Assembly (NCBI RefSeq): GCF_964355755.1 | Contig: NC_092675.1 | Location: 10,245,312-10,309,311, forward strand | DNA from: Antedon mediterranea | Taxonomy: Eukaryota > Echinodermata > Crinoidea > Comatulida > Antedonidae | Length of the DNA: 64,000 nucleotides | Direction of reading: 5' to 3' | Shown here: positions 2,437 to 51,096 of the stretch, one piece after another | Numbering within the stretch: the stretch's first letter is position 1 | Layout: every line of letters starts with the position of its first letter | Program-made: the position numbers and the translations under genes | The notes under the pieces: generated by a model | What the model was told of the DNA's origin: nothing | The model's input: only the letters and a program-made list of their open reading frames with translations | Database searches by the model: none

Positions 2437-3528
2437 CACCATTCCCTCTTAGAACACCATGTGGAATACGCCCGCCATGCATTTACACAATAATTGTATC
2501 ACAACACATTACATTAACTACCATAATCTACAATTTACCAAGCATTTTTTTCACTTTTTGATATTAATTGTGCTGTATTTTTTTTTACATCTAGGTGGTA
2601 TTTATTTGATTATACATATTACCATATTATACCACAAATAAAGATGCCTCCCCTGCCCTTTGAACAATAAATGCCCGGGGAGTTTAATCGGATACACATG
2701 GCTAGTTACTTCTAGCATTCTGAAAAGAACTGTTGAGCTTGACGTTTCTATCAAAATGTTCTTGGGGACAGCAATAACTAGTACTTGAAATTGAAACAAT
2801 TTAAAGTATCAGTTATTGCATAACATTACTGTCTAAAGATAAGTTATGTAGAGATATGTTTTTTGTTTGAAACATTAGTAATAGTATTTCTGTTCATCTT
2901 TTAACCACATTTTCTATTACAATGAATGTAAATATGTATATTTCGAACAATTTGATACCAAATTTAAGTTTCTACGACCAGTACTTACAGAGATATGAAG
3001 ATGCCATGATATGTGGGTCAAAGGTCAGAAATGGCATTTCTGATAATTTTTGACTAAAATGTCCCATTAGATTGAATATGAAAGCATGCCTTCTGAACAA
3101 TTTTGTTGTAAAAATGTGCTACAAATAATAAATATTTATTTCAAACAATTTAAGACCAAAATTAAGTGTCTACGATCAGTACGGTAGTTATGGAGATACA
3201 TACATGCCCTCTGTAGTGGGTCAAAGGTCAGACATGGCATTTCCGGTCATTTTTGACTAAAATGTCCCATTAGACTGAATATAAATGTATACCTTCTGAT
3301 CAATTTGAGACCAAAATTACTTCGCTGTGACCAATGGTTGTTGAGATTTAAGGACATATTGGTGTTTGGTCTTATGACCTTTCACCCTGACCTTTTGACC
3401 TTTCGCCACATTTTCAAAATGTGTAACCAAGCCAAAAATGATTGTTTGACCACCCTAAACCAATTTCTGAAGTCAAATTCTCTGGACCTCAAAGTGCATA
3501 CGAAAGTTGATCTAGCTACTAGAGTAAC
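2437..3528 (-). repeat. Right arm of the long inverted repeat
   Basis: Reverse complement of the left arm, with few substitutions and a roughly 130-base deletion in the middle. The two arms could fold into a hairpin of about 1.1 kb around a spacer of about 0.86 kb. Confidence 0.9.
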
Positions 3529-3897
3529 TATAAAATAACACATTTCAAATTAGGCATAGAAAAAAAACCAGAGAGAAATATTTATCAGTTCCGTAAAGGA
3601 AACAAGTAGATTCTGAAAATGGTTTATTACAACGATACTGTCAATGTTACGTGGTTCTTGTTCAAGGGTTATGACATTTAAGGGACTGTGTTGTAACCTA
3701 TAACCATGCGCCTTTTGTGAGGACATTTTTTTTCCAACTTCTTATGTGAAATGGTTAGAGAGTGTAACATAGTTTGTAAGTTTTTTTATTAAATTGAATC
3801 TTACACTCATACACGCTTCTGGATCTTCTCCAGCTGGTTTACCTGTTCCTGCGTAAGACATGTAAACACAAAGGGGATACATATATTTCTGACACAT
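3529..3897. other. No recognisable feature
   Basis: AT-rich sequence between the inverted repeat and the LINE tail; nothing coding or repetitive is seen. Confidence 0.5.
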
Positions 3898-21800: not shown

Positions 21801-24800
21801 GCGAGTTTGACGGTTCAAGCTTGTGAGGTCAGCCCAGCGCACATGTTTGCTGATGTTGTTTTGTGTGTCCGCCGTTTAGTTTTATTGGTTTTTATTTACG
21901 ATGCATAAAACCTATATTTTTTCCCAACACCACTCCATGCTAATAACTGCCCGATCGTGATGGCCATTCTACAGAAACAAAATCTATTAGGCCTACACAT
22001 AGACGCGAATTTAATTATCAGAAGCTGTTATGAGCTAGCACCGGGCGCGCGCGCCGGAGGATGTTCTTGCTAGAACTATACTAACTAGGGCCTAGGCTTA
22101 CGTACGTTACAGCAAGTTAAATAATCTTTGGACCAACATCTGTTATATTTTTATTATTATTGGCCGTATTCTTCCATTGTATTATTAACAAACTAATCTA
22201 AAAATATATATATATAATATGGATATAAATCTAATAATTTGGCCTAAAGTAATTGCCACAGTCTTTCTCAATCAAGGAAAATGTCCCGAATTTATCCTTG
22301 CTTCACTGTGGAAGCAGGCGTTATATCGTGGACTCTTTCACACAGATCAGGCTTACGACCGTGACGGTAATATTACCGCAATTTTACTAGGTCCAGAGGC
22401 GGTCTAACGGAAGCCGGCATTAAGAGGTTTTTACCCTTTCACACATAAGCCGGCGTTCGCGAATTACCGCAATATTACCGTCTTACAGCTCTGTGTGAAA
22501 GGGGCTTAATAAACAAATTCTTCATCTATACACACCAATCAGCAAAAATATTTACCATAGATGAAAGATTGTTTTGACCATTATTGAATGATAACTTGAT
22601 TGGCCAATTGACAGCCAAAACAAAAACATTGTTAAAAACGAACATTGTTTAATACAGAACATTGTTTTACAGACTGAGTTTACGAATTCCCATTTTCTAA
22701 GCCTTAGTAAACTAAGCTTCCCCATGATACGGTTTCCTAAACCCACAAAGTCATAAATTTAGAATATTAAATTTATGGATTTTTTAATTCTAAAAAAAAA
22801 AAACAAATCTAATCAATCCTTTATCAATACAAATCTGCTCATCAATAGTTTTATAATACTATAGACTTGAAAAGCTGATATTTTCTATAATATTTTAAAA
22901 CTTAAAAGTAAAAAAAAAAAATTGTTTGCTCATCAATAATGATCAAATAGCATCAAAATATAAAATATATTCATTTATACAGTACTAGGGTAGTAGCAGA
23001 TTTAGGTAAAATAAAAAAAATTCATTCATTGTTTCATTACATAATTTCTAAACATTTTCTACCTTTTTTTCATTATTTTCTGTATTTCCCTTAATTAATA
23101 TCATAATTTTAACCTTTAGTATCATACCATTAGTAAACACTGGCATTTATTTAGATTTTTGTTTTCTGAATTAATACTAAACATTAAGACAAAGTATTTA
23201 CTTCTTCACATTCTTTTTTTTTTGTTAATTTAAATCCACTACTTCCCTACGTTTTTTAGATCTTATTTAGGTTCACAAACTATATTTATTGTAAAAATAA
23301 TATTATATGGTCCTATTGCGATAACTTTTTTCGTCGTTAAACGGTAAAAAGTCGATTCTAATAATTATAGCGGCCCGCTATAAATCCCAAAATGCATTGC
23401 GCACCGATTGATATTTTTGTTTTTTTTCTGTAATTCACCCACTTTTTGATTGATCGTGAGGCCAAAACTAATGGAAGACTCCTAACTTTTTCAGCAAAAA
23501 TTTGTATCAACGAAGTCTGGCAAAAAATAGAAAGACAATTAAATGCAACTATACAATGTCAGGCTAGGTATATAGCTAGCGTACGATGTTCGTACGTTAC
23601 CGATGTTTACCAGCTTAAGGCCTAAAAAACTAAGCCTATAGCTAGGCTAGGCCTAAAGACCATCCACGAGAGGTCATTCGCTGTGAGCTACTTAGGTAGT
23701 GCATTATTTCTCACTTTTTATCATAATTTACCATAAAACTTACAATTAGGACAAGGAATGACCTGGTTTAATGTTTTTAAAGTAATATATGTATTATTTT
23801 TACAAAATGTCACAAATTGTAGGGAAGTCTTTAACTACATACATCAAATGCATTGTTTGGTGTACACTGATAGTATTAAAGATGATATGAAACGATTTTG
23901 AAAATTTAAATAAATTAGTGTTTATGAATCTGTCTAATGTAAATAACTAACACACCAGAAATTAGGTTTAAATACCTCATAAAACTCGAAAAATAAACAA
24001 ATTAAGTTTTAAAGAAAATCCTCCGGAAAATGGCCGACCAACTTGCACGCCATATTGGTTTTCACGATCGCTCTAAACACACGTACGTCCGATCACTCAG
24101 CTGATTTGAAATACCCGCGGTAGTAGCCACGGCAGCCGTTGTTATGTGATTGGTTACTCTTTTTCAACCTAGGCGAATCGTGATTGGTTGATTTAATGCA
24201 CTTTGACAGAGACACAGCGAGCTTGACGTTTCATGCATGACGACGAAAACAACATGTGCGACACAATCTCACCATCATTATTTTCGCAAGATGCCGAGTG
24301 CTTGTTGTATCGGACTGGATCAACACACCCAAATGTTTCTTTTTTTTTATTCCCCGACAAGTTAAAACGCAGTGAAACGTTTAATAAATGGACTGAATTT
24401 GTTAAGTTAACTAGAAAGGGGTATGTGTGGAAGCGGACTAACAGAATATGTAGCGCCCATTTTTTAAACGCGGACATCGACAATTTTTTCCATATTTCTG
24501 AAATGAAGAAGACGGGGGTGGTGGTAAAGCCGAGACTAAAAACGGATGCTTACCCCACCATAAAAGCTCCGGTAAGTGAGGAAGAAGGCCTACCACCCCA
24601 ACCCAAAAAACGGAAAGTGCGGCCTCGGACTGCGGCGTGTCGAAGACGCGAGGTTGAAAGGGTAAGAAATATTTTTATAAATTAAAATCCCCTGCGTGGA
24701 CGGTTGCCTACGTACGTAACGTTGTCGTTCAAATCTAGGCCTAGCCTGATTATACTATCATAATCGTTTGATTTAGTTTATGAAAATAATAATAAAATAT

Positions 24801-27800
24801 TTAAATTAAAATATTTCCTTTTAAATCTGTGGGCCCAGAGGCCCAGACTATCTAGGTAACTATATAGGTCCTCGTTGGTGAACCATTATACATAGGCCTA
24901 TTATTAGGCCTAGTGTAACCAGGGAGTTGTCCTGGTGTAACACTCTGACCATCATCAGGTCAACAACCCTTCAATCACTATTTCTCCCTACTCCATCTAT
25001 TAACATTCCTAGTGGTTTTTTCCTATCTCTAAGGGTATGTTCAGACCTACGGAGTTATGCTTTCGTATCACAGCCAAGGTCATATTTTAATGAGCGTCGT
25101 ATTGGAGCAAAGTGTTCGGATTCATTGCAACGAAGTTGCGTTACAAACGGATATGATGTCACTCGCTGGCGATTAACCAAACTCTAACACACGCATAGAC
25201 CTACCTTCGTTGTTATTAAAAGTAGTAGTGGTTGGTTTAGGAGTTACAAGCCTAGACCGAACACTTGGGCTCGGCATTATCGATTGGTTGTCAGGCATAC
25301 AAACCAGCCGATCGTTTTGGGGTTTGGGTTTATATTTGGTCTATGACCTAAAATATCATTTATGGCAGAAAAATGTTCAAATCCCGTACTTGCACCGGCT
25401 CCAGATTTATTTACTCGGTCTTTCGCCGCTTTATATGACGACCCCTTCAATTTCGTTTGGATATTAAATCCTTCTTTATGAGGATGGCCCATCTGCTAAC
25501 GTGTCCGCCATCTCGTTGAACACAGACATCTTGTTGTCGGTGCCTTTACGCCAGTTTTTCACTTCCAACCGATCTCTGAACTCAGGGCTTCCCCACAATG
25601 AAATAAGGTATTTTACTTCGGTTTCTCGCCAATGCGCACGCTTCGATGACATTTTAAATTAATTAATATAATAATATTAATAATAATACTGTATAGTGTA
25701 ACAACAAAAGGTATGATTTTTTCGCACGTTCACCGATCACAACAAATGGATCAGCTTGGCTATACGATGAGGAGCACATGTCACGATGTGATGTGGCGAA
25801 TATTGTAATTTGATTGGCTAGATATCTAACCTAGGTCATATTCATCGATGCGTGACTTTCGTATTGTAAGCGACGTCCACTAAACTCATACCTTGAGCTT
25901 TCGTAGCGTACGAAATATCAGTGTCGTACGAGGTGGCTTCCACTAATCTTTTCCTGGTTCAGACCTATGAACTTGTACGCCGCGTACAATACGAAAGCAT
26001 AACTCCGTAGGTCTGAACAGGCCCTAAGTACTCTTTGTTCACTGGCCTATAAAAACCCACATCCTTAATCAATTAGTGTTTCCTCCTCATCATCATCAAG
26101 GAATGTTCCCCCAGGCTTGGTATGTTAGTTTTAACAAAAACATTTTAAAAGTTTATTTTATAAAATTGTATGACAATTTTTTTAATTCACACCAGTTGAT
26201 AATTTTAATAATTGTTATTGCTAAGAATACCCAGGTAAGCCATGGAGGTACCTCCATGGAAGCTTGGCCTAGTCTAGACCTGGATACTGGTTAGTTCTGT
26301 TTTGTTATCATCAAGGAGCTTTGTTACCAAACAAAGAATGGAAAGTTTCCAACCTATGTATTCTTACTTTTCATTTTATATTTGATTTCAGATTCTGATT
26401 GAAGAAGAATTGCCTGGTACATCATCGGTATGTATTTTTTTTTATTATACCTGTATAAAAAGTTGGACCAGTCCCAATTTTAAAATGTGATAACGCATTG
26501 AATGCCTTAGTCAAAATTGGTGTAGTCTACCCTTTATTATTAATTATATGGATGTTGAAATATTTAAAATAGTTTACCTGTTAATCTTTTAATCTCTGTG
26601 TGTTAAAGCCATTAATTGAAATCATTAGTTGTCTACTTTGTGTATAAAGTAATTAAATTCAGATGTTGGTGAGTATTTACTACTGACCTATTGCATCGAT
26701 TTATTGATTTGCTCGTTATACAATTGTTTTTAAATATCTACTCAAGTGTGCAATTACTACTGGGGCCTGTTCGTAGGGGTTGAAAATACCAGCTTATTCC
26801 CGATTTCCGTTCGCGTGATCCAATTAACTTTTGCCTCAGGCTACAAAAAATTCGAGACAAAATGTTCACCAAATTTGCAGGTTATTTCAGCGATAATCCA
26901 ATTATACTCGGCCTTCGAGGATAATAAATCTCCGATAGAGGCAATGTGTCAAATTTTGACAAACGTTCGCTGCCTAGGCCCGTCATTTCTCCTACGAAGC
27001 TCTTCCATACACGCTTCGAGAGCGATCGTCAGCTGGTGCTGTCCTTGTTGGTGTAGACCGCTTAGGAATACACCCCGCTTAGTAGGCCTAGCTGGTCGGT
27101 GGTGTTTCCGTCGTGTAACATTGGGCTCAAATTCTTCGTCAATGAGTAAAATAATGGTCGTCAGGAGAAGGCATATTTCGCCAGGATTATCGGCGTTAAG
27201 AGGCATAAGGTTTGTCGCAAGGATAAGCAGTGTAAAAGGTAGCAAGTAATTGTTATTGTAAAGAAAGATCGCGAGTAAAAAATATACAACACGAAACTAG
27301 CGTGCGAAAATGGGGTCGTAGGTTGTAAAGACAACTGACCTTTAAACGTAATTTCCGGTTTGTGATTCGTCGATTAAGCATTTAAGCGGTTAAATATTTC
27401 AAGTACGAACAACGCTCAATTTATAACCCGAGGCATGGGTGAAATTAAGCGCTTACTTTTACCACCGTACGAACACGACCCTGTACATTTGTTTTTGTTT
27501 TTGTTTTTTTTCAATGTAAGTTAATTATGTAAGTTTTATCATCATTTACCCTTTATATGTTGTATATATTTGTATGGACGCACCACCGAAAGGTGTGTGC
27601 CACTGATTCGAAAGTGAGTACCAATAAATACTGAATAACTGAGTAAAAATAATCTGGTCACTAGATATGTTGTACTTTTAATCCAGGCCCAAGGACAGTG
27701 TCAACAGTCAGCAGGTATTAGATGTTGAAAAATAAACAAAGTCATTGTTTTGTTGGTTATGTAATAATACAGAAATATTAAGTCATGTTAAAATGATCAG

Positions 27801-30800
27801 TTCTTGTTCATGCATGTTTTTGTGGAGTTAAAGCCCCATTCCCTACGTTTTTTAGATCTAATTTAAGATCACAAACTATATTTAATGTAAAAATAATACT
27901 ATATGGTCCTATTGCGATAACTTTTTTCGTCTTTAAACGGTTAAAAATGTGAAAAATAAGTCGATTTTAATAATTATAGCGGCCCGCTATAAATCCCAAA
28001 ATGCATTGCGCGCGGATTGATATTTTTGTTTTTCACCTGTAATTCGCCAACTTTTCGATCGATCGTGAGGCCAAAACAAATGGAAGACTCCTAACTTTTC
28101 AGCGAAAATACCAAGTTTTCCCCAATTTGTATCAACGGAGTCTGGCAAAAATAGAAAGACAATTAATGCAGCAACTATACAACGTCAGGCTAGGTATATA
28201 GCTAGCGTACGATGTTCGTACGTTACCGATGTTTACCAGCTAGGCCTACAAAACTAAGCCTAGCCAGGCTAGGCCTAAGACCGTCCACGAGAGGTCGATC
28301 GCCGCGAGCTACTTAGGTAGTGCATTGTTTCTCACTTTTTATCATAATTTACCATAAAACGTACATTTAAGACAAGGAATGACATGGTTTAATGTTTTTA
28401 AAGTTATATATATGTATTATTTTCCAAAAAACGTCCAAAATTGCAGGGAAGGGGTCTTTAATTATTTTTTTTGAAGCCATGTTCTGATCTGTTTTGCATG
28501 ATTTTACTGTTAATTTCCATCTTTTTTTTCATGAATAGCATGCAGTTCAGTAGACGTTGATCATTTCCATATTTCTATTGCAAACTACTTTGCATGATGA
28601 TTACATCATAACAATTATACACAGTACAAACACCATACCATTTACTTATATTTTTATCAAATAATTTGTTTTTTTAGAGCATGTACTTAAGCAAGTTTAT
28701 TAGGGAACATAAACCCCACCGTTACCCCTTTTTAAAAAATTATCTTTTTCATATTTCATGGTACCAAAAACAGACGACGCAGCGGTAACACACAAAATAA
28801 ATATAAATTTATAATTATATAACTTATATAATTTATTCAGTTTCCTCAAGTTTCGAAGAAACTGGGGGAAGCAGTAATGAAGACGGAGATAAACGTGACA
28901 TACATTTATACAAAGAAGCGGACAGTAACAGTGACCATGATGATGCGGATCCAAATTACATCCCTCATGAAGGATCATCTGATGAAGAATCACTGTAAGT
29001 TAAGCAACCTTCTTGAGTGATGTTTATAAATAAATATATACTGTACATTTATATTATTAAACAAACATTTCTTTTTTGTAGCACTGATAACATAGAATCT
29101 GGAGAGACTGTTCGTGGACAGAGGAAATATATTGTAGGTCAGGATGAGCTTCTGACATTGTTTGACAGATGTCGTGAATGTGGAAGTCAAGCCGACAAAA
29201 AAGAGAATGTGGAACGGCAGTGGAGGTGATGGCCACTTGCACAAACAGAGCATGTAGACATGTTTTTGAATGGTCAAACCAACCAAAAAGTGAAAATATG
29301 TTCCTATTCAACATTTTGTTGTCCGCTGCAATCTTGGTATCGGGTAAGACTTTCAAAAATATTTTTTTGTAATTCAATCTATTTTGATAATTTTTTTTAA
29401 AAATAATTATTTATAATCAAAACATACTTCAATCGTATTGACAAAGAATTCTTTTATTTCAAATTGTAGGATGTTGTATTACCAAGTTTTTGAGGGCACT
29501 CCGATTTATTAACATCGCTGTTTTTAGTGATCGGACATTTTTTTATCATCAAAAATGGTAAGTTCAACATTTCAATAATGTCTATGTAGCAATCTAATTT
29601 TGGAAAAAAATGGGTGTCTATTGATGTTAACAAATTATATGTTGCTATCTGAATTTTTATCTTCAAACAAAGTATTTTACTGTACAAAAATATTACTGAG
29701 TAGTGGTGTATTCTTTTTAAATATGTGACATAGTTAACTGAATATTATCTTCAATATATTATTTAGGTATTTGCTGCCAGCCACTTCATGTATATTTGGG
29801 GGTCAAAGAGAGAAACACTTTAAAAGTGAAATGAATGTATCTTGCGATATGCGTTGTGACAGCCCCGGTTTCACAGCTAAGTTCGGTACCTACACAACTA
29901 TCGATACAGACACTCAGAAAGTTTATTCACGTAGAAGTTGTGCAGGTATTTTTTTTTCATTTGTTGTTTATTTATAGCACCTCAAGGCTATAGGTCCAAT
30001 TTATAAATTAATAAATTGTTAGTTATACAGGTAAAAATAATAATTCAGATATAAAATTCAAAATAAAAAACCTAAATATATCGCAACATTATATTAACCC
30101 TTATCTTTATTAGAATCTATGTTATTTTTGTTCATTATTCAAAATTTTTACCCATAAATTTTTCAGCAATTTCTTACAAATTTTAAAGTCATTTATATAC
30201 AAATTTTACTAATACAGTACACCATAAACTAGACATGCTTTGAAAATAAATAATTTATAAATTTTTACTTAAATATTTCTATTATAGAAAGACGAATGCC
30301 CCAATTCACCAGCTATGGAGTTAGAAGGGCTGAAACGAACGCTGTCTGTTCTGCAAGGCTATGGTGTTACAATCAAGCGTCTTGTCTCGGATCGCCATAG
30401 TAGTATTGCAGCATTTTTAAAATCCACAACCATCATTCATTACTTTGATGCATGGCACATTGCCAAGGGTAAGTAATATGTCTTAATAGTTATTTTATTC
30501 AAATTACCACAAATAAAAGGAATCAATGTATGTCAAATGATGTAAAAAGGTACGACTTTTTTCGTCTTACTGTAATTTTGTTTTTTTTTATATATATTCA
30601 GGAATAAAGAAAAAATGCATAAAAGCCAGCAATAACAAAGAATTACTCCATGATGTGACAAAATTGGCAAATGGATACCATCCATTATCAGGATGGTATA
30701 TTGGATCGGAAATACCACACAAGAAACGGAGGACTTGAATGCCGATGGTGAACTGAGGAAGCAAAAATTCCAAAGCATATATAATCACATACGGGGTATT

Positions 30801-33800
30801 CATAATCACGAAACCACACTATATCCCAAATGCCTTCATGGAGGGCTGGAACCTCGAGACTACATTCAACCAAGTAAGTTGTAGTATTGATTTTGGTGAA
30901 GATTATTGACAGTTTTTTTTTATTTTGCTAAAATTGGTTATCCGCACTTGGCGGATAACCTCTTGTTATTGTCAGGATCTTTTTTTTTTTTTTTTTTTTT
31001 TTCTTTATTAGTTATCCGCTTAGTAGCGGATAACTCCTTGTAATCGTCCTGTTTCATCAAATTTTTTTTTTCCTGTATTATACTTCTTTCTTTCTGTCAT
31101 TTTTGTGCGTCGCGTTTCTCTAAAACGTGTAAACAGAACATATCGTAACTTTGTCAACATATCGACATTTACATGAACTTGTGCACCTCCTATTTTTGAA
31201 TGACGTCAGAGTTGCGCAACGTGACTTACGCGCGATTTTATGAATTTCAATGATTGATCATAGACTAAAAACCAAACATAATTTTGTTTTGACACTTTGT
31301 GAAAATTTAAGTCATATCAAGCGCAAACTTTCTATGGATTAAAAATAGCATGTTTAACAAGAAGTTACGCGCGTACGCGCGTTTAAAACTTTAGAAAGCG
31401 AAAAATCAACTTCTGATCAACTTTCTATGCGTTTCATGTCATTTTGAGCATGTCAAAAATTCCCACGCGCGCGAAAATTTTTACGCACGCGGTGCACACG
31501 TAGCGTTAAAAACATATTTTTTTCGCGTGATTTATGTTTTTTCAGCCTTTTCTAGTAATGTTACCAAATTTTAAACAATTTCGACTTAAAATTACGTCAT
31601 ACGAGCACGTCGAATTAGATAATTTGCACGCGTTTTTGGTGAAAAAGTTCAAAAATTCGTCCAAATTATGCCTATTTTTAAACATTCATAGATTCTAAAC
31701 TACATGGGGAACTTTTTTTTAATTACATATTCTGGAAGTTGATGAGTTGTAGATATCGGATCATACATTAATATGGCTAACCGGACATTGTGACGTCATC
31801 GTATGGCCACGCGAATATAAAATATAGGATTTTTGTCTCTTTCGTCATAGCTCATCACATTTAATAGAGCGCATCTCCACTTATTCGTTGTCCATTTTCA
31901 CCCCGATTTTAATATATTCTAGGTCAATCAACTAACTTTTGCATGAATTAAAATTTTTTTAACGTCATCATGCCTAAAAATTTAAATTACTTTGGTCATT
32001 AATTTCATCTTTACAGTAAATTTTAATCTGTTATAGCTCGTAAGAATAAAATGTGATAATCACGATTAAAACGTTTTCAGGAAGCTATTGTATTGTAGAT
32101 ACAAAATCATGTGAAAATTGTGCCAATCGAATGTTGTGACGTCATCATATGGCCAGTTATATAAAAAAAGTCGTATTTTCATCTTTTGCGTTATATTTCA
32201 TTACATTTAAAAGAGCGTGCATCAATATTTCACGTATTCAAATTTCTTCTACACGTTAATATGTTGTTGCTGAGATAATTTCATTCTGAAATTTCTACTT
32301 TTGCATTTCATTTTGAAACCGTCAAGATGTTAAAAATTACAACAAAATACGGGTCCCGTAATTTCACCTATTTTACACCGTTTGTGATATGTATACAGAT
32401 TGTACTGTGTATACTATGTATATGACACAAAATAACAGAATTCAGAAATAACATATCATATTCTTCAGTTCAGGTCATAATGCCTTAATATTTTTCTGTG
32501 TGCAATATTCTAACGTATGACGTGCACGTGGCGTTTGTCGAGCGGATAACTAACTCGTCAAAGTGACGAGTTTCATGTCTAGTTCTTCTTTCTTTCCACG
32601 ATTTTTGTTCGCAGCGTATCTCTAATTCTAGCTAACATAAGATTCTATAACTTTGTCATAAGATTGCCCTGTAGCTGTAGATGTGCAAGAAACTTTTTTT
32701 AATGAATTTCGAGTCGCGCAGCGTAAGTTACGCGCGATTTTATGAATTTAAATGATTGATCATAGATTAAAAACCAAAAGTCATTTTGTATTGAAACTTG
32801 GTGAAAATTTAAGTTATATAATGCGCAAACTTTCTATGGATTAAAAATGGCATGTTTCACATAAAGTTACGCGCGCACGCGCGTTCAAAATTTCAAAATG
32901 CGCAAAATTCATTTCTAATCAACTTTCTACGCGTTTCATGTCATTTTGTGCATTTCAAAAATTCCCACGCGTGCGCAATATTTTTACGCGCGCGTGCGCA
33001 CGTAGCGCAAAAACGTCTTTTTTTTGCTTGATTTTTGTTTTTTCAGCATTCTCTAGTAATTTTACCAACTTTCAAACAATTTCGACTTAAAATCACGTCA
33101 TACGAGCACGTAGAATTGGATAATTTGCACGCGTTTTTTATGAAAAAGTTAAAAAATTCGTCAAAATTAGACCTTTATTTAAACAGTCATAAATTCTAAA
33201 CTACGTGGTGAACTTTTTTTTAAATTACATATTCTGGAAGTAGATGAGTTGTAGATATCGAATCATGCATAAATATGGCTAACCGGACATTGTGACGTCA
33301 TCGTATGGCCACTCGAATATAAAATATAGGATTTTTGTCTCTTTCCTCGTAGCTCGTCACATTTAATATAGCGCATCTCCACTTATTTGTATTCCATTTC
33401 CCCCCATTTGTTTATGTTGTCTAGGTCAATCAATTATCTTTCGCACGATTCACCATTTTAAAAATTGTGATGACGTCATCATGTTCAAAAGCGCCAATAA
33501 CTTTGGTCACTTATTTTCACATATTCTGCACTGTATGTAGTACGTATACAGTATAGTGTATACTCAGACGTGACGAAAAATAGAGAGCACACTGAAATTG
33601 TTTCAATGCCTTAATCGTTTTTCTGCGCGCAATATTCTAACGTATGACGTGCACGTGGCCTTTGCGCTGCGGATAACCTAACTCGTCCGTAGTGACGAGT
33701 TCAAATCTAGTTTATATTTTTTTTTTCCAGATTCAAAAGCGGAAGAAGTAGTTTCAAACATCCTGAATTCACCTTATTTGTTGAGATCTATTAAGCAGTT

Positions 33801-36800
33801 GTCACCGACTATCCAGACCTATTCAAATGAATCGTTTCATCAAATTATTAATCATTTTGCGCCAAAAATGCACCATTTCCGATTTAAGGGCATGCTTGCA
33901 AGGTATAATTTGATAGAATAGCATATTGTATAATTTAATGATAGAGAACCAATTAAGTAAGGTCTTTATAATCTATGATTTACACTAATTAAGCCTGAAG
34001 CCTTTAACAATCAATGTAATGTGTTGTAATTCTATATTGTGCATTTACTTCAGAACCTACCTTGCAGCCTTGCATTGAGATGTTGGCAGGCCACAAAGGG
34101 TCAACAAAAAAGGGGACACAGAACACTCTTTGTGGTATTCCCAGGCAAAAAAGGACTGGATGGCCAAAAAACATCTTGTTGATCCCACATTTGGTAAGGA
34201 CCAGTTACTATTAATTGTTACTAAGTTATGCCATAATTGAAAGTGTTTGTAAGCAAAATGTGGAACTAATTTATAAAATAGTTAAATATCCTATTACATT
34301 AAACAGTAATATGTTTGTCTTTGCAGTTTATGCCATCAACACCATTGAAATGGCGATGTATATGGCCAAAACTAATACAAAAGGATCATATTACACGGCA
34401 GAAATGATGTGTGATCCTGGTACAATTACAGAAAAACTGCCAAAACCAGACAAGACAGACTTTGTTGCAAAGTTAATCTCTAGATTTAAGCATTAACTTT
34501 ACACTGCTTCACAGAACTTGTGTCATAAATTTAGAATATTTTTATTTTATCACTACCTTGATCACTGATTTTATATCTCGGAGAAAAAGAATTGTTTAGT
34601 TGTTAATTTATTCCTTTGTTTTAGTTCATTGTATTTTGTTCATTGTATTTTGACATGCATGCTTCTGTTGTTCACAAAAAAAAACCAGGTATTTATTCAT
34701 AAGGTAACTACTGTACATTTATTCTTATACGGCAGGAACTACTGTACATAGATTTGTATTTATATGGAGTGTTAATTCATAAAATAAACTAAACTAGTCT
34801 TCATCCAATCGAGGATATGTAAATCCTGTATATTTTGTTCAGGGTCAGGAAAAGCTTCTCTGATTTTATTTATTACACAGGATGTAATTGGGACACGCCT
34901 GTCTCGCCCAAGATACCTCCAACACCAACGCACAAACTGTCGATACGCTGTATACCTGTATTTCCTGTGCAAACAAAAATAACTTGTAGAAAATGATTTT
35001 TTGAATAAAAATAAAGGCAAATCAGTTACAAATTACTACTACTACTACTGCAAAAACATGGTGTTTACCTTTCTTTTCTTCCTTCCACAACGAGTTCATC
35101 ATATTGAGATGCATACTGCCAATACGCAATTTGGAGGGTTGCCGGATTAAGAATGGCAGCTTGGAACCAGGGATGGGTGGTGATACATCCATTATGTTCA
35201 TTTTCCTTATTTTTATCCATTATTTTCTCTACCTGTTTATTTTTTAAAAAAAGGTGATATTTTCACTAATGGAATTTATTTACTATCAATCATACAAAAT
35301 GTATGGTTATGACAGTTTTAATATGGAGCAATTTTATTTTAATACATAATTTAACACTGCTTACTTCTTGACAACAATATCTATTTTCCCACATCTCCTC
35401 TACAACACAGTTTCCACACCCACACCTGTTGTAGAAAAAGAAGGAATATGAATATGATTATTATGTTGTTAGAATGTCTCACTTCTTAAAATATGAAGGT
35501 CTAGGCCTAGTTAGGCTAGTAGACTAGTTAGTAGTACGCTTACTACTTACTAGCCCTAAAATAAAGCATTAATATATTACTATATACTAGCTAGGCCTAG
35601 TCCTAATTAATACTAGGCCTATATGCTAGGCCTACTACAGACGTTCCAACCTAAATGAATTAAAAATCGGGAGGGTATACCGCCACCAACGTTAACACTG
35701 TGATGTCTGTTGCCACCAACGTTCAATAATAAAACTATACTGTACTACCAACACGAATCTTAAGACAGCTCTTTGCAAATCAGAGTAATACAAACAAAAA
35801 GAAAAGAACTTGTTTGGTGATTATAAATCAAACTTTATCTATATATAAATTTACGTAAGGGCAAAATTCGGTAAATCGCGCCTTACTTCTATAATTTTTA
35901 CTCGATGGTATATAAAGTTGGTTCGTACTTTCGGTACTGATTTTAACCACCTGATGTAACCCTGTTTACTAATTAAATTAAGTTAGATAATTAGTTATTG
36001 ACGGTTAAAACGAATTTAGGTTCTAAGATTTGCCCCAAATAGGGGTGTTTTCCGATCGTGGTATACACTGTCTAATGGATGTCCGTCTTGAAAAATACCC
36101 GCCACAAAAATGCGAGGAGGCTTCGCATTTTCCTATCTCCTCCTACGATAATTGTTTTTAATGGCTGAAAACCGGTTGAACAGCTAGAGTACACCATCAT
36201 AATGTTGAAGACAGGCCGATTTTCTTTAAAAAATACTATTTTGATATATTTAATATACGATTATACAAATCTATTGATTTGCGATGAATGGAACATCCCA
36301 ATCTCTCAGTCTGCCAGAGTTTGGTTTAACACAAGTACTGTAGGTAAATTTATGAGCCCTTGGTTTAACACATACGGTAGGTAAATATATGGGCCCTTTG
36401 AGAATAAACTTGCGAGATTGTGGATAGGCTCTACTGTTAGATATATAAACACATTATTATATACAAATAAACTTTATACTGACAGTTCTTTCTCAACGTT
36501 TGTATTAATTAATAATTACCAAATATAAACGTCGTAGTGGTGTATCGTGACATGGTACTTTAATATTTCAATCGATTATGACAGTGACAGTTTTAACTAA
36601 ACTAAATAAAGAATGTTCTCTAATATAATTAGGAATCTCTTGCCATACACGGGGAAAATTAGTGTACAATGAATATTTAAAAGAAATAAATAAATAAATA
36701 AAATAAAAAAAGTATTATATCGCAAATGTTTTACTGTATTTAGAGGTATATTATTTATAGGCCTATAAAACATGAAAAAAATATTTCGTTACTGAGTGGA

Positions 36801-39800
36801 TAAAGAATATATTTAAAAATTGTTCCTCTTTGTACCTATCCGCTTTCCCATCCCTCAACCCTAATGTTACATACAAAACACAAATTGGGTTTCTTTAAAT
36901 GAGTCCAAATCAAAAACTTGGACTCATTTTGTGATAAGTTTCTCCTTCGGAAGTAATTCCCAGGGTGCTAATTTTAGTTGACTACATAAATCATCGTGTC
37001 TATTTATTTGTTTCTGTAAACGACAATGTATAGGCCTATAGTCCTGCGGTACGTACATTTGAAATCGCCAGTTTTGTTACGCTGAAATTACTGTGTATTC
37101 GAGAACCATCTGTGGGAACGACCTAGATGGTACGCGAGCGAAGCGAGCGTACCATCTAGTTTACTAAATTTATATTGTTGTATACACTTAAATAAAAAGC
37201 CATTCACAGTACAAATCAAATCTGTACTAGTTGTATTAATTCATTAACAAAAATACTAATTAAAACAAACAACTTGGAGTGTAGTGTACAGCAACATCGT
37301 TGATTCCTCCCTGTGAGCATGACAAATTCACGTTACAAATAGTGCAAAAAAACTTGTATTCACTCTCGGTAACGTGTTGATTACTCGCACTAACAAACGG
37401 AAACGTATTTTTCCATTCATTAGAAAATCTAGTTTTATATTTTTTCTTTTTACAACTTTCTTTAGTCTCTAAAACTACGCTACTACGTTTTTCCGACATA
37501 CTGTAAAACCAGAAAATTTCACGAGTGATTGCAATTTGCGAAAGTATGTACGCAAAATACAGTACTACAAGTACTTTTCCGGTACATGCGCAGTGAGAAT
37601 ACATACAGTACTGTACGATGGTACGATCGATGCCTGGGCATTGGAATTGGGTCAAAGAACTTTGTAACTAGCAATTTCAGTACACGCGCGCCTACTACTG
37701 ATACTGTAGATTCATCGCGTACTGTCGGTAAACACAAAGGACGTCGCATAGTACTACTACTACTACTACTACTACACTGACGATGATGCCTTCCCTGGGC
37801 ATGGGAATTAGGTCAAACTTGTAACCAGGAAAAAGTTTCAGTACATGTGCGCCTACTCTACTGATAAAGCGATACTATAGCTTCATCGCTAAAGGTAAGA
37901 ATCGCGTACAGTCGGTAAACACAAAGGACGTCGCCTTACAGTACGCTGTACCATCCATGGCTGTACTATGCTATACAATCTTTACATACATTACATGTTC
38001 GTTGTATCATACGGGGTGGTACGTACGACGTGTGAGATTAAATTAATTTGCAATATTAACTTTCGTGGGAAGATAGATTTTAATTTAATGCAATAATACT
38101 GAATTTTATAGAAATGTGTGAAATCGGGAGATATATTTAAAATTCGGGAGACCGGGAGGTGATGTTAAAATTCGGGAGACTCCCGGATAAATCGGGAGGG
38201 TTGGAACGTCTGCTACTAGCCTAGGGACTCCCTAGCCTAGTAGTCTAGTAGTACTCTAGAGTCTAGTAGGCCTAGTACTAGGAGGCCTAGCTAGGATATT
38301 ATTAATACTAGCTAGGCCTATATAGTTTTAGGCCTTATTAATTATACAGTACTTTATCCCCAAACCTAGACTACCACTTTACTCCCTCCTTACAAATAAA
38401 TATACCTACCAATCTCGTCCTTGTCTCAAATGAAGATTTTGTGGTAGGCCCATCGCTGCGAATCCATGTGCTCTAGCCCGATCTCGGTGGTGTGCAGCAT
38501 CGCCGCCGAGTGGCCCACTTCTCCCTCCGCTCCACCAGCGGGCACCCTTGGATCGTTTTCAAACACTCCTCTCCAATTCACTGCAACAATATCATGCTCA
38601 TCTTCGGATGATGCCGAGGACGATAAAGACGACATATCGCTATCCATTTAAAATTATTGTAAATATCAGATAGTATATAGTAGAAATAAAACGTAAAGCT
38701 ATCTAGCGATTGAAAAATTAAATGGCGTCCATACACAACAAACGAACGAGTCTAGAAAGTGTATCTGACGCATGCGTATTATCGGTTCGTGTACCTAGCT
38801 TGTGTAGGGTTTGACTGAATGTTTCGGAGAAAATGAGCGTGAAAAACGAAATTAAAAATCAATTTATATAAAAAAATTAAGGAAATATTCCATAATTTCA
38901 ACGATTTACGATGTATTAATCATTTAAGAATGAAACTGTAAAGCAGATAAGTTAATATCGAAATAGTTTTGGCGCAGTGGAAAATTAACCCAAAAATTCA
39001 TATCTCCTCCTGTACAAAAGTTTCCGCTTGTGACGTCACAGGCGGATTTTTTTTCATTTCTTAGGGCTGTTTTCTATGCGTCATCGTCATCTCTGAAATG
39101 TACTCTAACAGTCAGCTGTATGTAACAGTATATACTACGTGTTGAAAACATAAAATCAAACTTTTTGGAATCCTTTCATATCATCTTTAACCTGCTAACC
39201 CACATAGTGACACGCATGTAAACATACACATTCATTTATATATATAGTTTTCACCAAAAAACGTTTTAGTTTTAGGAAATTTAGTATAGCCTTCTCTTCT
39301 TATTAAGCTTATAGAGTATCACGGTGTGATGTGACAACGATAGAGGGCGCTGCATGGTTGCTAGCCAATCAAAAAATGCGTTCAACGCTACTAGTTGATA
39401 AACAGTAAAGATCTGTATTTCTATCAAATTATGTATCTTAGCTTGATTTTTAAACTTAAACTGTAGTTGAAGAATAAATAGATTATTAAAAACAAATATT
39501 TAGTGATCTTTTGAAATTTTAGTTTGTTTTTATTGAAAATTATTAAGTTTTAAAATGACTACTTCAATAAGACTATTCCAAACCATTGGTGACCTTTGAG
39601 TCACTCATGCAGGTTTAACGCATTTTTGGTTGTGCTAGCAACCACGCAGCGCCACCTACAGTCGTGACGTCAGCACCGCGATAATCTATAAACATAATTA
39701 AACAGCTATAAAATTAAACAGCATATGACATCAACAACCAAACACAACAAATTTTCCCCAGTCAGATGCTGATTCATATCAGGATAGTGTAAATGACATT

Positions 39801-42800: not shown

Positions 42801-45800
42801 CTAGTCTCTACAGTACATTTTGTGCTAGTCTCTAGATTTTCTGCTAGTCTTTAGATTTTGTGCTAGTCTCTAGATTTTGTGCTAGTCTCTACATTTTCTG
42901 CTAATCTCTAGATTTTGTGCTAGTCTCTACAGTACATTTTGTGCTAGTCTCTAGATTTTCTGCTAGTCTTTAGATTTTCGGCTAGTCTCTAGATTTTTCT
43001 GCTAGTCTCTATTATTATTTATCTTTTATTGACAACTGGGGATAACAGTGTCCAACATGGCATACAAATAGTAGGTGATACAAGCATTAAAATAGCAATA
43101 ACAAACTTAAATAATATTTTCACTAACTTTAAGAACTTCATACATCGGATGAATATCAAGAGAAGGATTTAATGTGAAACAATATTTACTAAGTTTAGTA
43201 CTCGTGGATTCTAACACACGGTTACGAATTCTTGTTATATCATTATTACGATGATCAGGAATCTCTAAAATACTACAAACATAACGATAAAATGGAGTTT
43301 GAGTAAGTTGACATATTGACCATGCCAACATGAACGGGTCGTCATTCATATTCTCCCTTTCATTTAATATTTTATTAAAAACTAATATTGAACTAATGCA
43401 TCACAATTTACTTAAGATTTTTTCTACCCTAAAAACATACAGTGGATGTGCAGCTGATTCTACAGTATAAAGTTGCTATTAATTAAAGTAGTAAACATTA
43501 GTTTGGAAGGAAAGGGCCTGCCACAGCACAATACAACCTAACACATGAATGTAGATCAATTATTTCATGAGATTGATGTTTTGTTAAGTCTAATTTTGTC
43601 TTCAAGTTCATTGAGAAATAGATCACTTACTGAATAAGTGGTGTAATTGTATACAAATAATGAATGTTTATGAGTGAAATGGTACAAATAATTTCATGAG
43701 GTGAAAGCTGAATGGTCTAATATTGATCTTTATTTGATTTTGATTTTTAAGTTGATCGAACATGATCAGTCAATAACAGTCTCTTGTCGCTTGTGGTTGC
43801 TCACAAACAATTATTTATTATCGTGTAACTCAAAATCCTCCAATCAAATAAAAAGAATCTACTAGGTATGTTATCTATATATAAATTTACGTAAGGGCAA
43901 AATTCGGTAAATCTCGGTTTATTTCTAGAATTTCTACTCGATGGTATATAAAGTTGGTTCATACTTTCGGTACTGATTTTAACCATCTGATGTAACCCTG
44001 TTTACTAATTAAATTGAGTTAGGTAATTAGTTATTGACGATTAAAACGAATTTAGGTTCAACGATTTGCCCCAAATAGGGGTGTTTTTCGATCGTGGTAT
44101 ACACTGTCTAATGGATGTCCATCTTGAAAAATACCCGCCACAAAAATACGAGGAGGCTTCGCATTTTCCTATCTCCTCCTACGATAATTGTTTTTAATAG
44201 CTGAAAACTGGTTGAACAGCTAGAGTACAGCATCATAATGTTGAAGACAGGCCGATTTTCTTAAAAAAATACTATTTTGATAGATTTAATATACGATTAT
44301 ACAAATGTATTGATTTGCGATGAATGGAACATTCCAATCTCTGTTTCACAAGTGTCTATTCCCTCAGGCGTCGTAAAGGCAAGTACAGCACTGTATACTC
44401 GAAATTCGATCCATTTTTGTTTTCAATCTGTGCTGCAGAGGTTGGATATAATTTTTTTTTAAACGGATAATGAGCTAGCGTTTTCACTCGCCGTATATTA
44501 TGTACAAATCTTTATTATTGCAGTTAAACCACCCACATCATCACCTTTCCCTCACTGGCATGAGTAGCGTTGTAAAACCAGTAGAGAATAGGCCTACGGT
44601 ACATCACATGCCCTAAACGCAGAACAACTTTGGTGGGTAGGGTAGGAACCAACTTAAGTATGAATTGGCTCTAAGAAACAATTGAAAACCATTAGGCCTA
44701 CTAATTAAGTTGAGTTAGATAATTTAATATTTATTGACGATTAAATCGAATTTATGATTTTCCCCGAATAGAGGTGGTTTTCACAAATTGTTTTACATTA
44801 TATTATAAACATATACACGTCGTAGTGATGTATCGTTACATGTGCTGTACTATTTCAATCGACTAGGACGGTGATAGTTTCAACAAAGTATTACATCGCA
44901 ATGTTTTACTGTGTTTAGTGGTATATTATTTGTAAAACATGAAAGCAATTAATATTTCGTTACTAAATGGATAAAGAATATATTTTAACATTGTTCCTCT
45001 TTGCACCCATCCTCTTCCCCATCCCTCAACCCTAATGTTACATACAAAACACAAATTAAGTTTTTTTAAATTTGACTTAAACAATTGGTCTTATTTTGTG
45101 ACAAGTTTCTCTTTCGGAAGTAATAAGGTGCTAATTTTAGTTGAGTACATAAATCACAGTGTCTATTTATTCGTTCCTGTACACGACATGTATTATTGTC
45201 CTGCGGTACGTACATTTGAAATCGCCAGTTTTTTAACGCTGAAATTATTATGTATTCGAGAACCATCTGTGGGCACGACCTAGATGGTACGCGAGCGAAG
45301 CGAGCGTACCATCTAGTCTATATATAAATTTACGTAAGGGCAAAATTCGGTAAATCGCGCCTTACTTCCTGAATTTTTACTCGATGGTATATAAAGTTGG
45401 TTCGTACTTTCGGTACTAATTTTAACCACCTGATGTAACCCTGTTTACTAATTAAATTAAGTTAGATAATTAGTTATTGACAATTAAAACGAATTTAGGT
45501 TCAATGATTTGCCCCAAATAGGGGTGTTTTCCCGATCGTGGTATACACTGTCTAATGGATGTCCATCTTGAAAAATACCCGCCACAAAAATGCGAGGAGG
45601 CTTCGCATTTTCCTATCTCCTCCTACGATAATTGTTTATAATAGCTAAAAACTGGTTGAACAGCTAGAGTACAGCATCATAATGTTGAAGACAGGCCGAT
45701 TTTCTTAAAAAAATACTATTTTGATAGATTTAATATACGATTATACAAATGTATTGATTTGCGATGAATGGAACATCCCAATCTCTCAGGCCCTGTTCAG

Positions 45801-48800
45801 ACCCATGGCGTTAGACCGTTTTAGCGTACGACGCTAAAAGAATGTGTGTCTGAACAGTTGGGGATTAGCGTACAACGCGTCGTACAACGGTTGTAGCGTT
45901 GTAGTGGAAAACGGTTGATAGTACCGTTTTAGCGTGCGACGCTACTGTAAGTCAACGTTGTATCCAATCAGAACGTTTCCTGTTATGACGCGAAACAAGG
46001 TTTGACCTAGGCTGACATCTTGTATCGTCACTGTGTGTAATGGATTTCAATAACAAAAAGGCCAGAATAAATAAGGCCTAACTACACTACAAATACAACT
46101 GTTACAAAGGCTACAAACTATTATCAACTGATTACCATTATATTTTCTAACAAATGACATAAATACATGCACCTTGTATTTAAACATAGGGACTACGATC
46201 CCATCTGCTTTTAGGCCTAGCTAGGCCTAGAGCCATTCACGCATTTCATTCAAACTAAAAACTAGCGTGGGACATCAAGTCACTCATTGATACAAGGCAG
46301 ACTAGACTGGACAAGTTTAATGCTGAAACCCCCTAACTCCTAAAAAAGATCAGTAAACAAACAAGGGGAGCTGTGTCCCTTTTATTAGCAAGTTAAGGGT
46401 TATTTTCAACCGACTGGACCAAAGAATATATATCTTTGACTGGACTGGATAGACTAATCACAATCATTTTTTTCTTCATCATTATTACGAGGCCTGCTTT
46501 ATTTTCGGTGACTACTTCTTCGCATGCAGCTAAAGTAAAATGACGTCACGTTAAAGTGTGTCGTCACAGAGTCTCATGCATATGCAAAAGAAATGTTTTC
46601 TCTCTGCTTCTTGATTGCGCGATGATGATTTTACAGAAGTAATTCCCAGGGTGCTAATTTTAGTTGACTACATAAATCATCGTGTCTATTTATTCGTTTC
46701 TGTAAACGACAGTGTATTGTCCTGCGGTACGTACATTTGAAATCGCCAGTTTTGTTACGCTGAAATTACTGTGTATTCGAGAACCATCTGTGGGCACGAC
46801 CTAGATGGTACGCGAGCGAAGCGAGCATACCATCTAGTAAAAATAATTATATTAATTCTGAAAAACATGCTCATTAGCCTTTTTTGCAAACAATTCTTAC
46901 ATAATTAGGCCAAAAAAAAAAAAATAGTTGTCATCCGCCGCCCCTAATTTCGCCAAAAATTTGGGGCGGAGATAAGAAAAAGTTTTTTTTTACGTTGAGG
47001 GCGCTTTAAAAAAAAAAGGTTTTTTATGATTTTTTTGGGCCGAAAAGGTGTAAAAATCGAGTGTGCGAGGATGAAACAATAAAAATAATAACGTAGCGTA
47101 TATTTCGGTGTATAATCGCACTTTTGACACGCAAATTTAACCTCTAAATTAAGGGTGCGTCTTTATACACCGAACATAAATGCCTCAACACACAGATATC
47201 GCCACCTCGTTGGCTAGGCCTGGGCTTTTTAAGGTAAGGCCTAGGCCTATTAGTATTACTAAAGTCTAAAGAGAGGCCTAGCCTAGCTACAGTGTACTAG
47301 CGTAACAGCAACCTGCTAGTTTTCAAGGCATTTTAGCGTGATTTTGAACTAAATATGATGAAAAGATTTGTTCATTATGGAGCTGTTTTAGGCGCTCCGA
47401 TAAAATTTCATTTGTAAACGTTTACGATTGGAATAGTATTATAGTTATACGCACGACCGTCGTACCCATAGCGCGAGCGAGCCCTTCTTGGCAACCACAT
47501 TGTGTACACAGTATTCGACTAGTATCTCCAGTTGATTATAGCAAGACCTAGCGTACACACTTCTAGGATACATAGATACTAATCGAATACGATTGTCCGT
47601 GAAAACGTGCGCCTCTCGATAAAAGGATCGAGCGATCGAGGCTAGCCCACACACACGTGCGGTCATGCACTCAATGTTGCGGGTGCGAAACTCATGAATA
47701 ACAAGTTAGAAAGAACTGACGGAATGGGGGACTTCCCTTCTTGTTGAGGCTGGGCGCGGCCGTCTTATACATCGACGATATACAAAACACCGATATTTTA
47801 CTCTCAGTTAGGGGGTGCGTCTTATACACAGGTGCGACTTATACACCGAAATACACGGTACACTAACTTCTAAAATATTTAATTAGGCCTGCTAACAACG
47901 ACCTACTGTGTAGTAGTAGGCCTAGCCTAGGCTAGTTTAGACACAGGGCCTAACACGCCCAAAACAGAATTAAAGTGTGAACCAAATTATGAATAGATGT
48001 TTGAGCTCGTTGTTTTATTCAGTGTGTTTTGTTACTCTCAAATTCGCGTACAATTAACAGAGAAATTAACATTAAAAAAACAAAAACAAAAAACAAAAAC
48101 ACTTTTTTCCACCCGCCCCCACCCCCCCCCCCCCTACCAAAAAAAAAAAAAAAAATTTACAGCAAACAAACAATTTTTTTTTTAGGCCTTACCACAAAAT
48201 AGATTTAAATGAAGTAGAGCAGACCGTATTCATTAATTGTTGATTGTGTATAATCTAGGAATTTTGTTTAAATAACAACAAATTATTTAATAAATTTCAT
48301 TAGATACTAAATAATATCACGTCATTTTAGACCAGGTGTCTCTTTTAAAGACATTCAATATAATCTATTTATGAAAAAAATATTGAACTTTAGGAATTAT
48401 TGAATAATTACTACACTGGCCATTATTATAATATTCACTATGATAATAAATTATTTTGCATAAATAATTAGAAAAGGCTTACAATACGAGTCATTATTTT
48501 TAAACAATTCATTACTTTAAACTGGTATTGTTTCTATTTAGAGTAATAATGTCAATAATCCATAGACACACAGTAATTTCCATATGTAAAACAAAATATA
48601 ATACATTTTTAATTTGTCTTTTCCAAAATCCTATCTCTATTCTTCTAATATCTGACTATTAATAATCAATACATATAAAGTGCATACATAAAGTGCATTA
48701 TTTTGTAACTGATGTATTTTGTAATAATATTCAACTTTTATTTAAAAATCTTTTATATTACATAATTCATATCTTATTGTTATTATTTTCAAGACCTTTT

Positions 48801-51063
48801 TTGTCTTCTACATTTATTATTAAACCAGGTCGTTGTTGTAAGAGTTGCCGTCCATTGTACAATGTACACAATGAAGTTTGATGGTACTGTAGGTAAATAA
48901 ATGAGGTGAAACAAAGTAGTTTAAAGATGGAATTCTTCAACTAAGTTGATGCCATCTATCAATTACATTGTAATAAGTTTGTCATGTTTAAATAGCTTAC
49001 AAAGCATAGAAGATACATCACTATCAAGTAGTAGGACAAACAGCCAGACGCTATCCAGTTGTATTTTAATGCAATAAGATACTGTATTGGTGGATATTTT
49101 CTATATTTCAAATTTTCTTATTCAGATTTTTATTCTTATGTAATTAATTTAATTTTTTTGGTTTTTGTTTTTCTTTAACCTTTCCGTTTTTGATGTATTT
49201 TGTGTATTGTATCTGTTCTGAGGGTCCCAAATGATCCAGATGCTGGATGGATCACCCTCATTTAATATGGTTAAAATAAAAAATAAAATTAAAAAAAAAC
49301 AATGTTACTTTGTTTCTTCTATATACATGATTGGGATTATTATAGGCCATGTAAATATTTGAATGTGTCTAAAAGATGATTACCATTTGGAGGATTTTAA
49401 ACGTTATGAATTCCCGAAGACCGTGAATATATCGCCAATAAATCATTAATTAGTAATTATTTGCCTTTATACTCGGGGATTTAAAAAGTTATATTTCACC
49501 TCTAAACAGGCAATAAATATAATAAACATAAATCAATATTTTTTCTATACAATAAAAAAAGGAAGGAGAAAAGTTAATACATGTGGATAATTTATACAGC
49601 AAATAGACATTAGGAGTTGTTTTATTATCTGTAATTCCGTTTATGAAGGTTCTGTAACAAGTACGGCAAAGCTTATTAACACTAACATTTTACAGCATTA
49701 GCATCCCTGGAGAGATGTACAAGTTTAATTGTTGAGAGAGACAACCTAAATACTAATGTAGTATTACTGTTTTGTCATAGGGACATTGTTGAATATGTCT
49801 TCAGAAAAATTTTAATTCATCTAGAATTTATAATGCAATTTCTTCAAGGTTATTAATAAAAGTAGCTAATAGTTACACAAATAAATAATTTAATCAATAT
49901 TTTAAAAAATTAAATATATAATATTAAAATACTAACCTACAACAGCGGAACATGGGGTTTAACCAAAGAAGAGGAAACTAAATTAGATACATCATAGACG
50001 CCAATTAAGGCATATATTAAGAGTTTTGCATCCACAAAGGATTTCTAACATACATTTGTATATAAAAGATGCAACGCACGACCCTTATCTTTAGAAATCG
50101 TCGAAGCGCGATGGAAGCTTTTCGGACATATTATTGAGACAAGATAGGAATACACCAGCAAATCTGGCCATAAAGTTCTAGTTTACAAACACAAAACACA
50201 AAAAATACAGAGGTAGGTCTAATGCACACTTCCAGTTACTTTAAACAATGACATAAAAAAGGTGAACTCCCCTAGCATGATGAGGCTGGAGACAATGAAA
50301 GATGTTGACTATTTTAGAAAGTTGGCCAACAAACGAAAGGAATGGAGAAATCTGGTACAAAGACTAATAGTAGAGAGGCCAAATACACAAAAGTCCTCTA
50401 TAAAAAGTTTGGGGGGCATTTTTTGTTAATAGCAGGCAACCATGTTGAATGTATCCTTTGTGGGGTGACAAAAACGATAGGGGTGGATGCCATCTTCAGT
50501 TTTGGGTTTTAAGGTCAGTTTATGTGGTCAAGAGGTCAAACAAGGTCAAAATATAGGATTTTTTTTTATTCACGGAAAATCATCTACATCATCAGATCTA
50601 TCCAAAAAGGTATATCTGAAGATCAACTGATGCTTCATATTATAGTAATTATGAGATAAACATTTAATTTTACACATAAAAACATAGGAAATTAAATATA
50701 AAAGTGTCATTTTCTCAAAATGTTGTTTTCACATATTTCTGTAAAGTACACACAGTTTTTTAATAGGCTTTTCCCAGTCATTGTAAATTTGTCTTTTTCA
50801 TGTTGTCCACCAGTCATCGTTTTGATTTTTGTCGGAAAAAATAGGTCAAGTGTTATATGTATGAAACGCCATATGTGCCAAAAGATTGGTCTTTTACTAT
50901 AATATTAATATTACCTATAATAATTAATGTAATACAGTAATATTTAGAAATTTGTTTTTAGAAAAATTATTAATATTACCTATAATAATGTAATAATACT
51001 TAGAATTTGTTTTTAGAAAAATTTCGAAAACAGAGACCCCCTATATGAACAAGTTTTTATTGA

Positions 51064-51096
<33 letters not shown>

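Follow-up and report, generated by a model that had tools for sequence, protein, structure and literature searches.

A degenerate Kolobok-type transposon with a convergent P2X7-type ballast gene in the crinoid Antedon mediterranea

Kolobok transposons of the Kol0 lineage (Kolobok-1_XT type) code for a transposase and a second protein, KolX, which has the cytoplasmic ballast of the P2X7 receptor, a fold in which seven cysteines are conserved. Both P2X7 and Nanor have been proposed to descend probably from KolX (Kojima & Bao 2022, PMC9587614). The analysis reported here concerns a 64,000-nt stretch of the Antedon mediterranea genome (contig NC_092675.1, positions 10,245,312 to 10,309,311 of the forward strand), referred to as the window, and an element of 15,315 bp within it that is very probably a degenerate DNA transposon of the Kolobok superfamily, organized like the Kol0 lineage and including a convergent second gene, KolX. 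Features common to this element and to Kol0 are the TTAA target, RR...YY ends, a DDE transposase with a DxxH motif and a zinc finger, and a KolX with the ballast cysteines. Compared with Kol0 as published, the crinoid is a new host class as far as was searched, no crinoid Kolobok having been found in the literature covered, and the copy in the window is no longer functional and has been enlarged by nested insertions. A further difference is the modelled exon number, 12 and 4 for the two genes, in an open copy elsewhere in the genome (L009).

Several other described systems are close to this locus. The Kolobok of Xenopus has a THAP domain, which is usual in Kolobok, a DDE motif, an H2CH motif, AG ends and TTAA (PMC6004289). 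KolobokP, KolobokD, KolobokE and KolobokH likewise combine a Kolobok transposase with an accessory gene, their accessories being nucleases or helicases. Ballast proteins across Metazoa had been described earlier (Rump et al. 2020, PMC7016195), and the accessible main text of that paper makes no mention of transposons or transposition. The P2X7 receptor ballast and the Nanor-like proteins have the ballast cysteines in common with KolX, the likeness of Nanor being taken from PMC9587614; KolX differs from the receptor in having no channel part and in being a transposon gene.

Positions are given in window numbering, and L-numbered loci such as L009 are stretches elsewhere in the A. mediterranea genome. 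The element spans 23876-39190, including the TTAA copy on either side, and has perfect 13-bp inverted ends directly inside TTAA, within a longer imperfect inverted repeat of 32 nt (84 %, TTAA counted in). The termini are AG...CT, in agreement with the 5'-RR...YY-3' ends of Kolobok, and no direct repeat was found that is shared between the two ends, unlike in KolobokP with its long terminal direct repeats (about 450 or 660 bp). The features of the element, the exons placed mainly by comparison with the open copy L009, are as follows.

23876-23879, TTAA target-site copy, left
23880-23892 (+), left terminal inverted repeat, AGATGATATGAAA
24291-24661 (+), first exon of the transposase, coding for the THAP domain; compared with L009, the frame is interrupted near the exon start
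28837-29558 (+), transposase middle exons (acidic stretch, Cys-containing region), from tblastn with the L009 transposase; frame broken
29768-29923 (+), transposase exon with the putative first catalytic Asp (CDMRCDSPG); match stops early, frame broken
30288-30875 (+), transposase exons, frame broken, carrying the putative second Asp (SDRH), the DAWH motif and an H2CH-like zinc finger
33727-33927 (+), transposase exon with the putative catalytic Glu (NESFH); match extends slightly beyond the exon
34052-34493 (+), the two final transposase exons, the earlier of which has an in-frame stop; gene end near 34496
34772-34964 (-), KolX exon 4 (C-terminal part of P2RX7_C); frame shift near its end relative to L009
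35069-35232 (-), KolX exon 3 (GCITTHPWF)
35365-35425 (-), KolX exon 2, zinc-cluster cysteines (CGCGNC...CC)
38410-38647 (-), KolX exon 1; frame broken relative to L009
39174-39186 (-), right terminal inverted repeat
39187-39190, TTAA target-site copy, right

Pfam identified a THAP domain (E 3.6e-10) in the open reading frame 24227-24685 (+) and P2RX7_C (E 3.5e-6) in that at 34772-35032 (-). The two genes are convergent, tail to tail, with their stops about 280 bp apart. Relative to L009, the reading frame of the transposase is interrupted in the THAP exon and in several further exons, and that of KolX in its first and last exons; judged by these breaks in both genes and by five nested insertions, which also account for the length of 15.3 kb, the window copy is dead. 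A preliminary description, made from the window sequence, had recognized a Kolobok-type TTAA transposon with a THAP transposase, bounded by matching inverted ends and enclosing two convergent gene models and no other old genes. The transposon type, the ends and the convergence were borne out, whereas neither gene is intact and the nested insertions are other old sequence between the ends. The gene annotated by NCBI as 'P2X purinoceptor 7-like' (protein P0002) is the window's own ballast gene, whose shifted C-terminus it shares, and this name should be read with caution as it denotes a broken transposon gene and not a receptor.

The coding capacity of the element was read from L009, in which both genes are open. 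Its transposase gene comprises 12 exons separated by 11 GT-AG introns, with an open frame of 688 aa; the NCBI model P0019 matches this transposase at 100 % over 57 % of its length. Pfam returned THAP (PF05485, 1.1e-11), the DNA-binding domain of Kolobok, and a Mutator-like transposase domain (PF20700, 1e-9). D347, D414 and E560 (L009 numbering) are invariant in nine aligned transposases and, from the family motif, are the likely catalytic triad; a DAWH motif and an H..H..C.H stretch, recognized by eye, appear to correspond to the D/CxxH motif and to the zinc finger ahead of the Glu in the Kolobok transposase. A piggyBac transposon would share the TTAA target, and a few piggyBac families have a KolX-like protein without most of the cysteines (PMC9587614). 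The element described here has the cysteines and AG...CT ends, and nothing besides THAP and PF20700 was found in its transposase at E up to 1, the piggyBac transposase domain being absent at that level; on these features a piggyBac identity was rejected as extremely improbable.

KolX of L009 is open over four exons and has 211 aa. P2RX7_C (3.2e-16) was the sole Pfam match above cut-off, and no P2X channel domain was found by Pfam. The protein matches residues 471-595 of the P2X7 structure chain 6u9v (E 2.1e-13). Eight cysteines are invariant across 11 aligned KolX sequences, and seven of these fall on ballast cysteines of P2X7 when the alignments are compared by eye. The second protein thus agrees with KolX of Kol0 in its ballast domain and conserved cysteines, the comparison being with the published description. 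Related proteins numbered 18, of which four were from Antedon; others among them were from another crinoid, abalone, tubeworm, sea anemone, ribbon worm, sea urchin and a fish.

Other parts of the window likewise hold exact 13-mers in inverted orientation at TTAA (one pair at 50426/55383 and four inside a large inverted repeat at 0.4-3.5 kb), so that the inverted match is not decisive by itself and the other copies decide. The whole genome (354 Mb, 18 contigs) was searched for TTAAAGATGATATGAAA, which consists of TTAA and the terminal inverted repeat; 22 exact occurrences were found, 11 on each strand, and none of the reversed control. Four head-to-head pairs of ends were obtained, namely the window element (15,315 bp), L009 (7,350 bp), L010 (4,835 bp) and L011 (4,812 bp). 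All four have the 4-bp TTAA target-site duplication and contain KolX and transposase sequence within the same ends, and none encloses a transposase only. The further copies that the preliminary description suggested looking for were thereby found, and the ballast gene belongs to the transposon. Two unrelated genes lying by chance between matching repeats, as the other 13-mer pairs of the window might suggest, would hardly give the same boundaries and contents in every paired copy, and on these copies that explanation was rejected as next to impossible.

L010 and L011 are deletion forms in which the middle of the transposase, including the first two catalytic Asp, is missing. They are 99.0 % identical with different flanks, and therefore this form was mobilized or copied once it had already lost the middle part. 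L010 sits in a tandem array, the units of which align through its joined flanks, and when the flanks of L011 are joined across a single TTAA, an open frame of 101 codons runs through without interruption. Around the unpaired ends 13 further loci were fetched. L023 contains the right half of the element with parts of both genes, L015 the right end with one KolX exon, and L012, L016 and L017 left parts, while core matches in L013, L014, L020, L021, L022 and L024 are restricted to the right end. As a separate observation by eye, different Kolobok families seem to occupy TTAA sites of a same-looking tandem satellite in the flanks of L010, L037 and L046.

The preliminary description also raised the question whether the two genes recur tail to tail within common boundaries, and the tail-to-tail arrangement was found well beyond the copies with identical ends. 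A genome search with P2RX7_C gave 70 exon-level matches, some being two exons of one gene, which fall into many groups of equal score; the number is a lower bound because the window's own copy, L010 and L011 were missed. Of these matches 30 loci were read, together with six picked among other places, L009 and L023 (also in the 70) being counted apart. A convergent Kolobok transposase match (opposite strand, downstream, within 3 kb) was present at 34 of the 36 ballast loci. Among the 30, it lay within 1.5 kb in 26, in opposite orientation every time, and among the six added loci in five; three of the five misses gained a match with longer flanks, two of these matches covering no more than the THAP part (E 1.3e-4 and 1.8e-16). 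The convergent pair is held by at least seven groups (L009, L057, L025, L028, L036, L039 and L052), which are not joined by clustering of their DNA or whose proteins are clearly different. In four further families the flanks diverge exactly at TTAA-AG. L056 is a compact complete element with TTAA ends at 130 and 4883, 12 matching terminal bases and both genes within. L028-L032 share 99.8-100 % identity over a stretch of about 2.3 kb with five different flanks, and L052-L054 show the same identity over the compared stretches, which suggests that both sets transposed very recently.

This recurrence bears directly on the possibility that one transposon copy recently captured a host P2X7-like gene and carries it as a passenger. 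The resemblance of the KolX domain to P2X7 and the NCBI name of the window gene would fit such a capture. It is opposed by the convergent pair in at least seven distinct groups of one genome, by the lack of a P2X channel domain in the L009 gene, by the constraint on KolX described below and by KolX having been described in Kol0 (Kojima & Bao 2022, PMC9587614). Capture as cargo was rejected on the recurrence and is very improbable.

Selection on the two genes was compared between L009 and the related family L057. For KolX the proportions of nonsynonymous (pN) and synonymous (pS) differences were 0.156 and 0.778 over the 130 of its 211 codons that could be aligned; for the transposase they were 0.149 and 0.828 over 296 of 688. 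Synonymous sites are saturated in this comparison, and no pN/pS ratio is therefore given. By these values both genes are strongly and similarly constrained in the pair compared, which argues for KolX as a working part of the element. Of the alternatives in the preliminary description, cargo or accessory gene, the latter fits better since KolX is constrained like the transposase in this pair of families.

Co-inheritance and constraint together favour KolX as an accessory subunit of transposition over passenger cargo, and it is rather likely to be one. The THAP domain of the transposase would bind DNA, and the THAP-DDE transposase would cut the element at its AG...CT ends and insert it at TTAA, as cut-and-paste at TTAA is expected from family membership. 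KolX, of about 210 aa with a zinc-coordinating ballast domain of P2X7 type, moves within the same boundaries, is retained by selection as a component of the element and would, for example, assemble or regulate the transposase-DNA complex. PIF/Harbinger pairs its transposase with a Myb-like protein in the same two-gene partner logic; it differs from Kolobok in superfamily, target site and partner protein. It is possible, more tentatively, that KolX acts in Kol0 transposition as an obligate second subunit, that essentially every stand-alone 'P2X7-like' ballast gene of crinoids, and perhaps most of those of invertebrates, is a Kolobok gene, dead or alive, and that the zinc and guanine-nucleotide domain later captured by P2X7 evolved for moving DNA.

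The main rival to an accessory subunit is that KolX is kept for a role outside transposition, such as countering host silencing or regulating copy number. The constraint fits such a role too, as it tells that KolX matters to the element and not how, and the P2X7 ballast contains a zinc cluster and a pocket for guanine nucleotide (Rump et al. 2020, PMC7016195). Two of the five GDP (guanosine diphosphate) contacts of rat P2X7 named in that paper (R546 and R578) are identical in the aligned L009 KolX, the other three not, and a role outside transposition is rather unlikely.

A number of points weigh against the accessory reading and the Kol0 placement, or limit them. The constraint was compared in one pair of families, over part of each gene and with saturated synonymous sites, and the L009 splice sites were chosen by open frame and homology. 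In a wider KolX alignment (16 rows, including fragments) a single cysteine is invariant. KolX exon 1 has an in-frame stop in both L010 and L011, so that, with the first two Asp also missing, a copy can travel without coding either protein intact. Of the 22 exact ends 14 are unpaired, and L018 and L019 have a matching end with no match to the element core besides it. Among the ballast loci, L034 has a weak convergent match seen only when searched alone (best E 1.7e-5), and L035 has none within the 1.5 kb reach, while grouping with L036-L038, which have the transposase, at 96.6-97.7 % over about 1.5 kb. L060 has a transposase match on the same strand in addition to that on the opposite strand. 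One flank is common to L052 and L053, and L025 and L026 are alike over nearly the whole stretch fetched, so that these may not be separate insertions. The far end of L055 has TTAA and no more than six matching bases, short of the seven-base rule applied. The placement in Kol0 is drawn from KolX content and domain layout.

The pairing itself had been thought undescribed in the preliminary description. This does not hold, and the central claim was already known, because Kojima & Bao (2022, PMC9587614) describe the P2X7 ballast domain in KolX of Kol0. To this the present analysis adds a crinoid example, repeated tail-to-tail pairs throughout a single genome and constraint that runs parallel in both genes, parts of which may be in print already. 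In another animal class and over one whole genome, it supports the 2022 proposal that the ballast domain of P2X7 originated in a transposon, and it gives further evidence for joint selection of KolX and the transposase.

The nested insertions, defined as gaps when the window element is aligned to L009, are as follows.

25029-26028, insertion 1, 1 kb; 40-bp inverted ends and a Myb/SANT-like open reading frame (PF13837, E 2.8e-4, below cut-off)
26676-27639, insertion 2, unclassified
27829-28460, insertion 3, a short TTAA-flanked element of about 0.6 kb with AG...CT ends
30936-33710, insertion 4, a tandem pair of direct repeats of about 1.5 kb each (86-88 %), with a hairpin and CTAG at the end
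35600-38212, insertion 5, in KolX intron 1

Insertion 1 is presumably Harbinger-like, and insertion 4 is taken to be Helitron-like by its CTAG end. Insertion 3 is possibly a Kolobok-type non-autonomous element; a second copy lies in the left flank of the element at about 23243-23807, and L020 holds a copy of 98 % identity. Sequence related to insertion 4 is present in L018. Parts of insertion 5 (35837-37147) are a dispersed repeat with more copies at about 43873-46825 and in L014. The insertions are also missing from other copies that extend across the insertion points, for example insertions 4 and 5 from L010, L011 and L023, insertion 1 from L012, and insertions 2 and 3 from L016.

Elsewhere in the window, a large interrupted palindrome at 356-3530 has arms of up to 347 nt that are 96 % complementary. 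At 50410-55402, inverted arms of 112 bp (83 %) lie about 4.8 kb apart and contain an exact TTAA-TAGCAGGCAACCA pair, and a minus-strand open reading frame of 322 aa between these arms resembles, by eye, a retrotransposon fragment.

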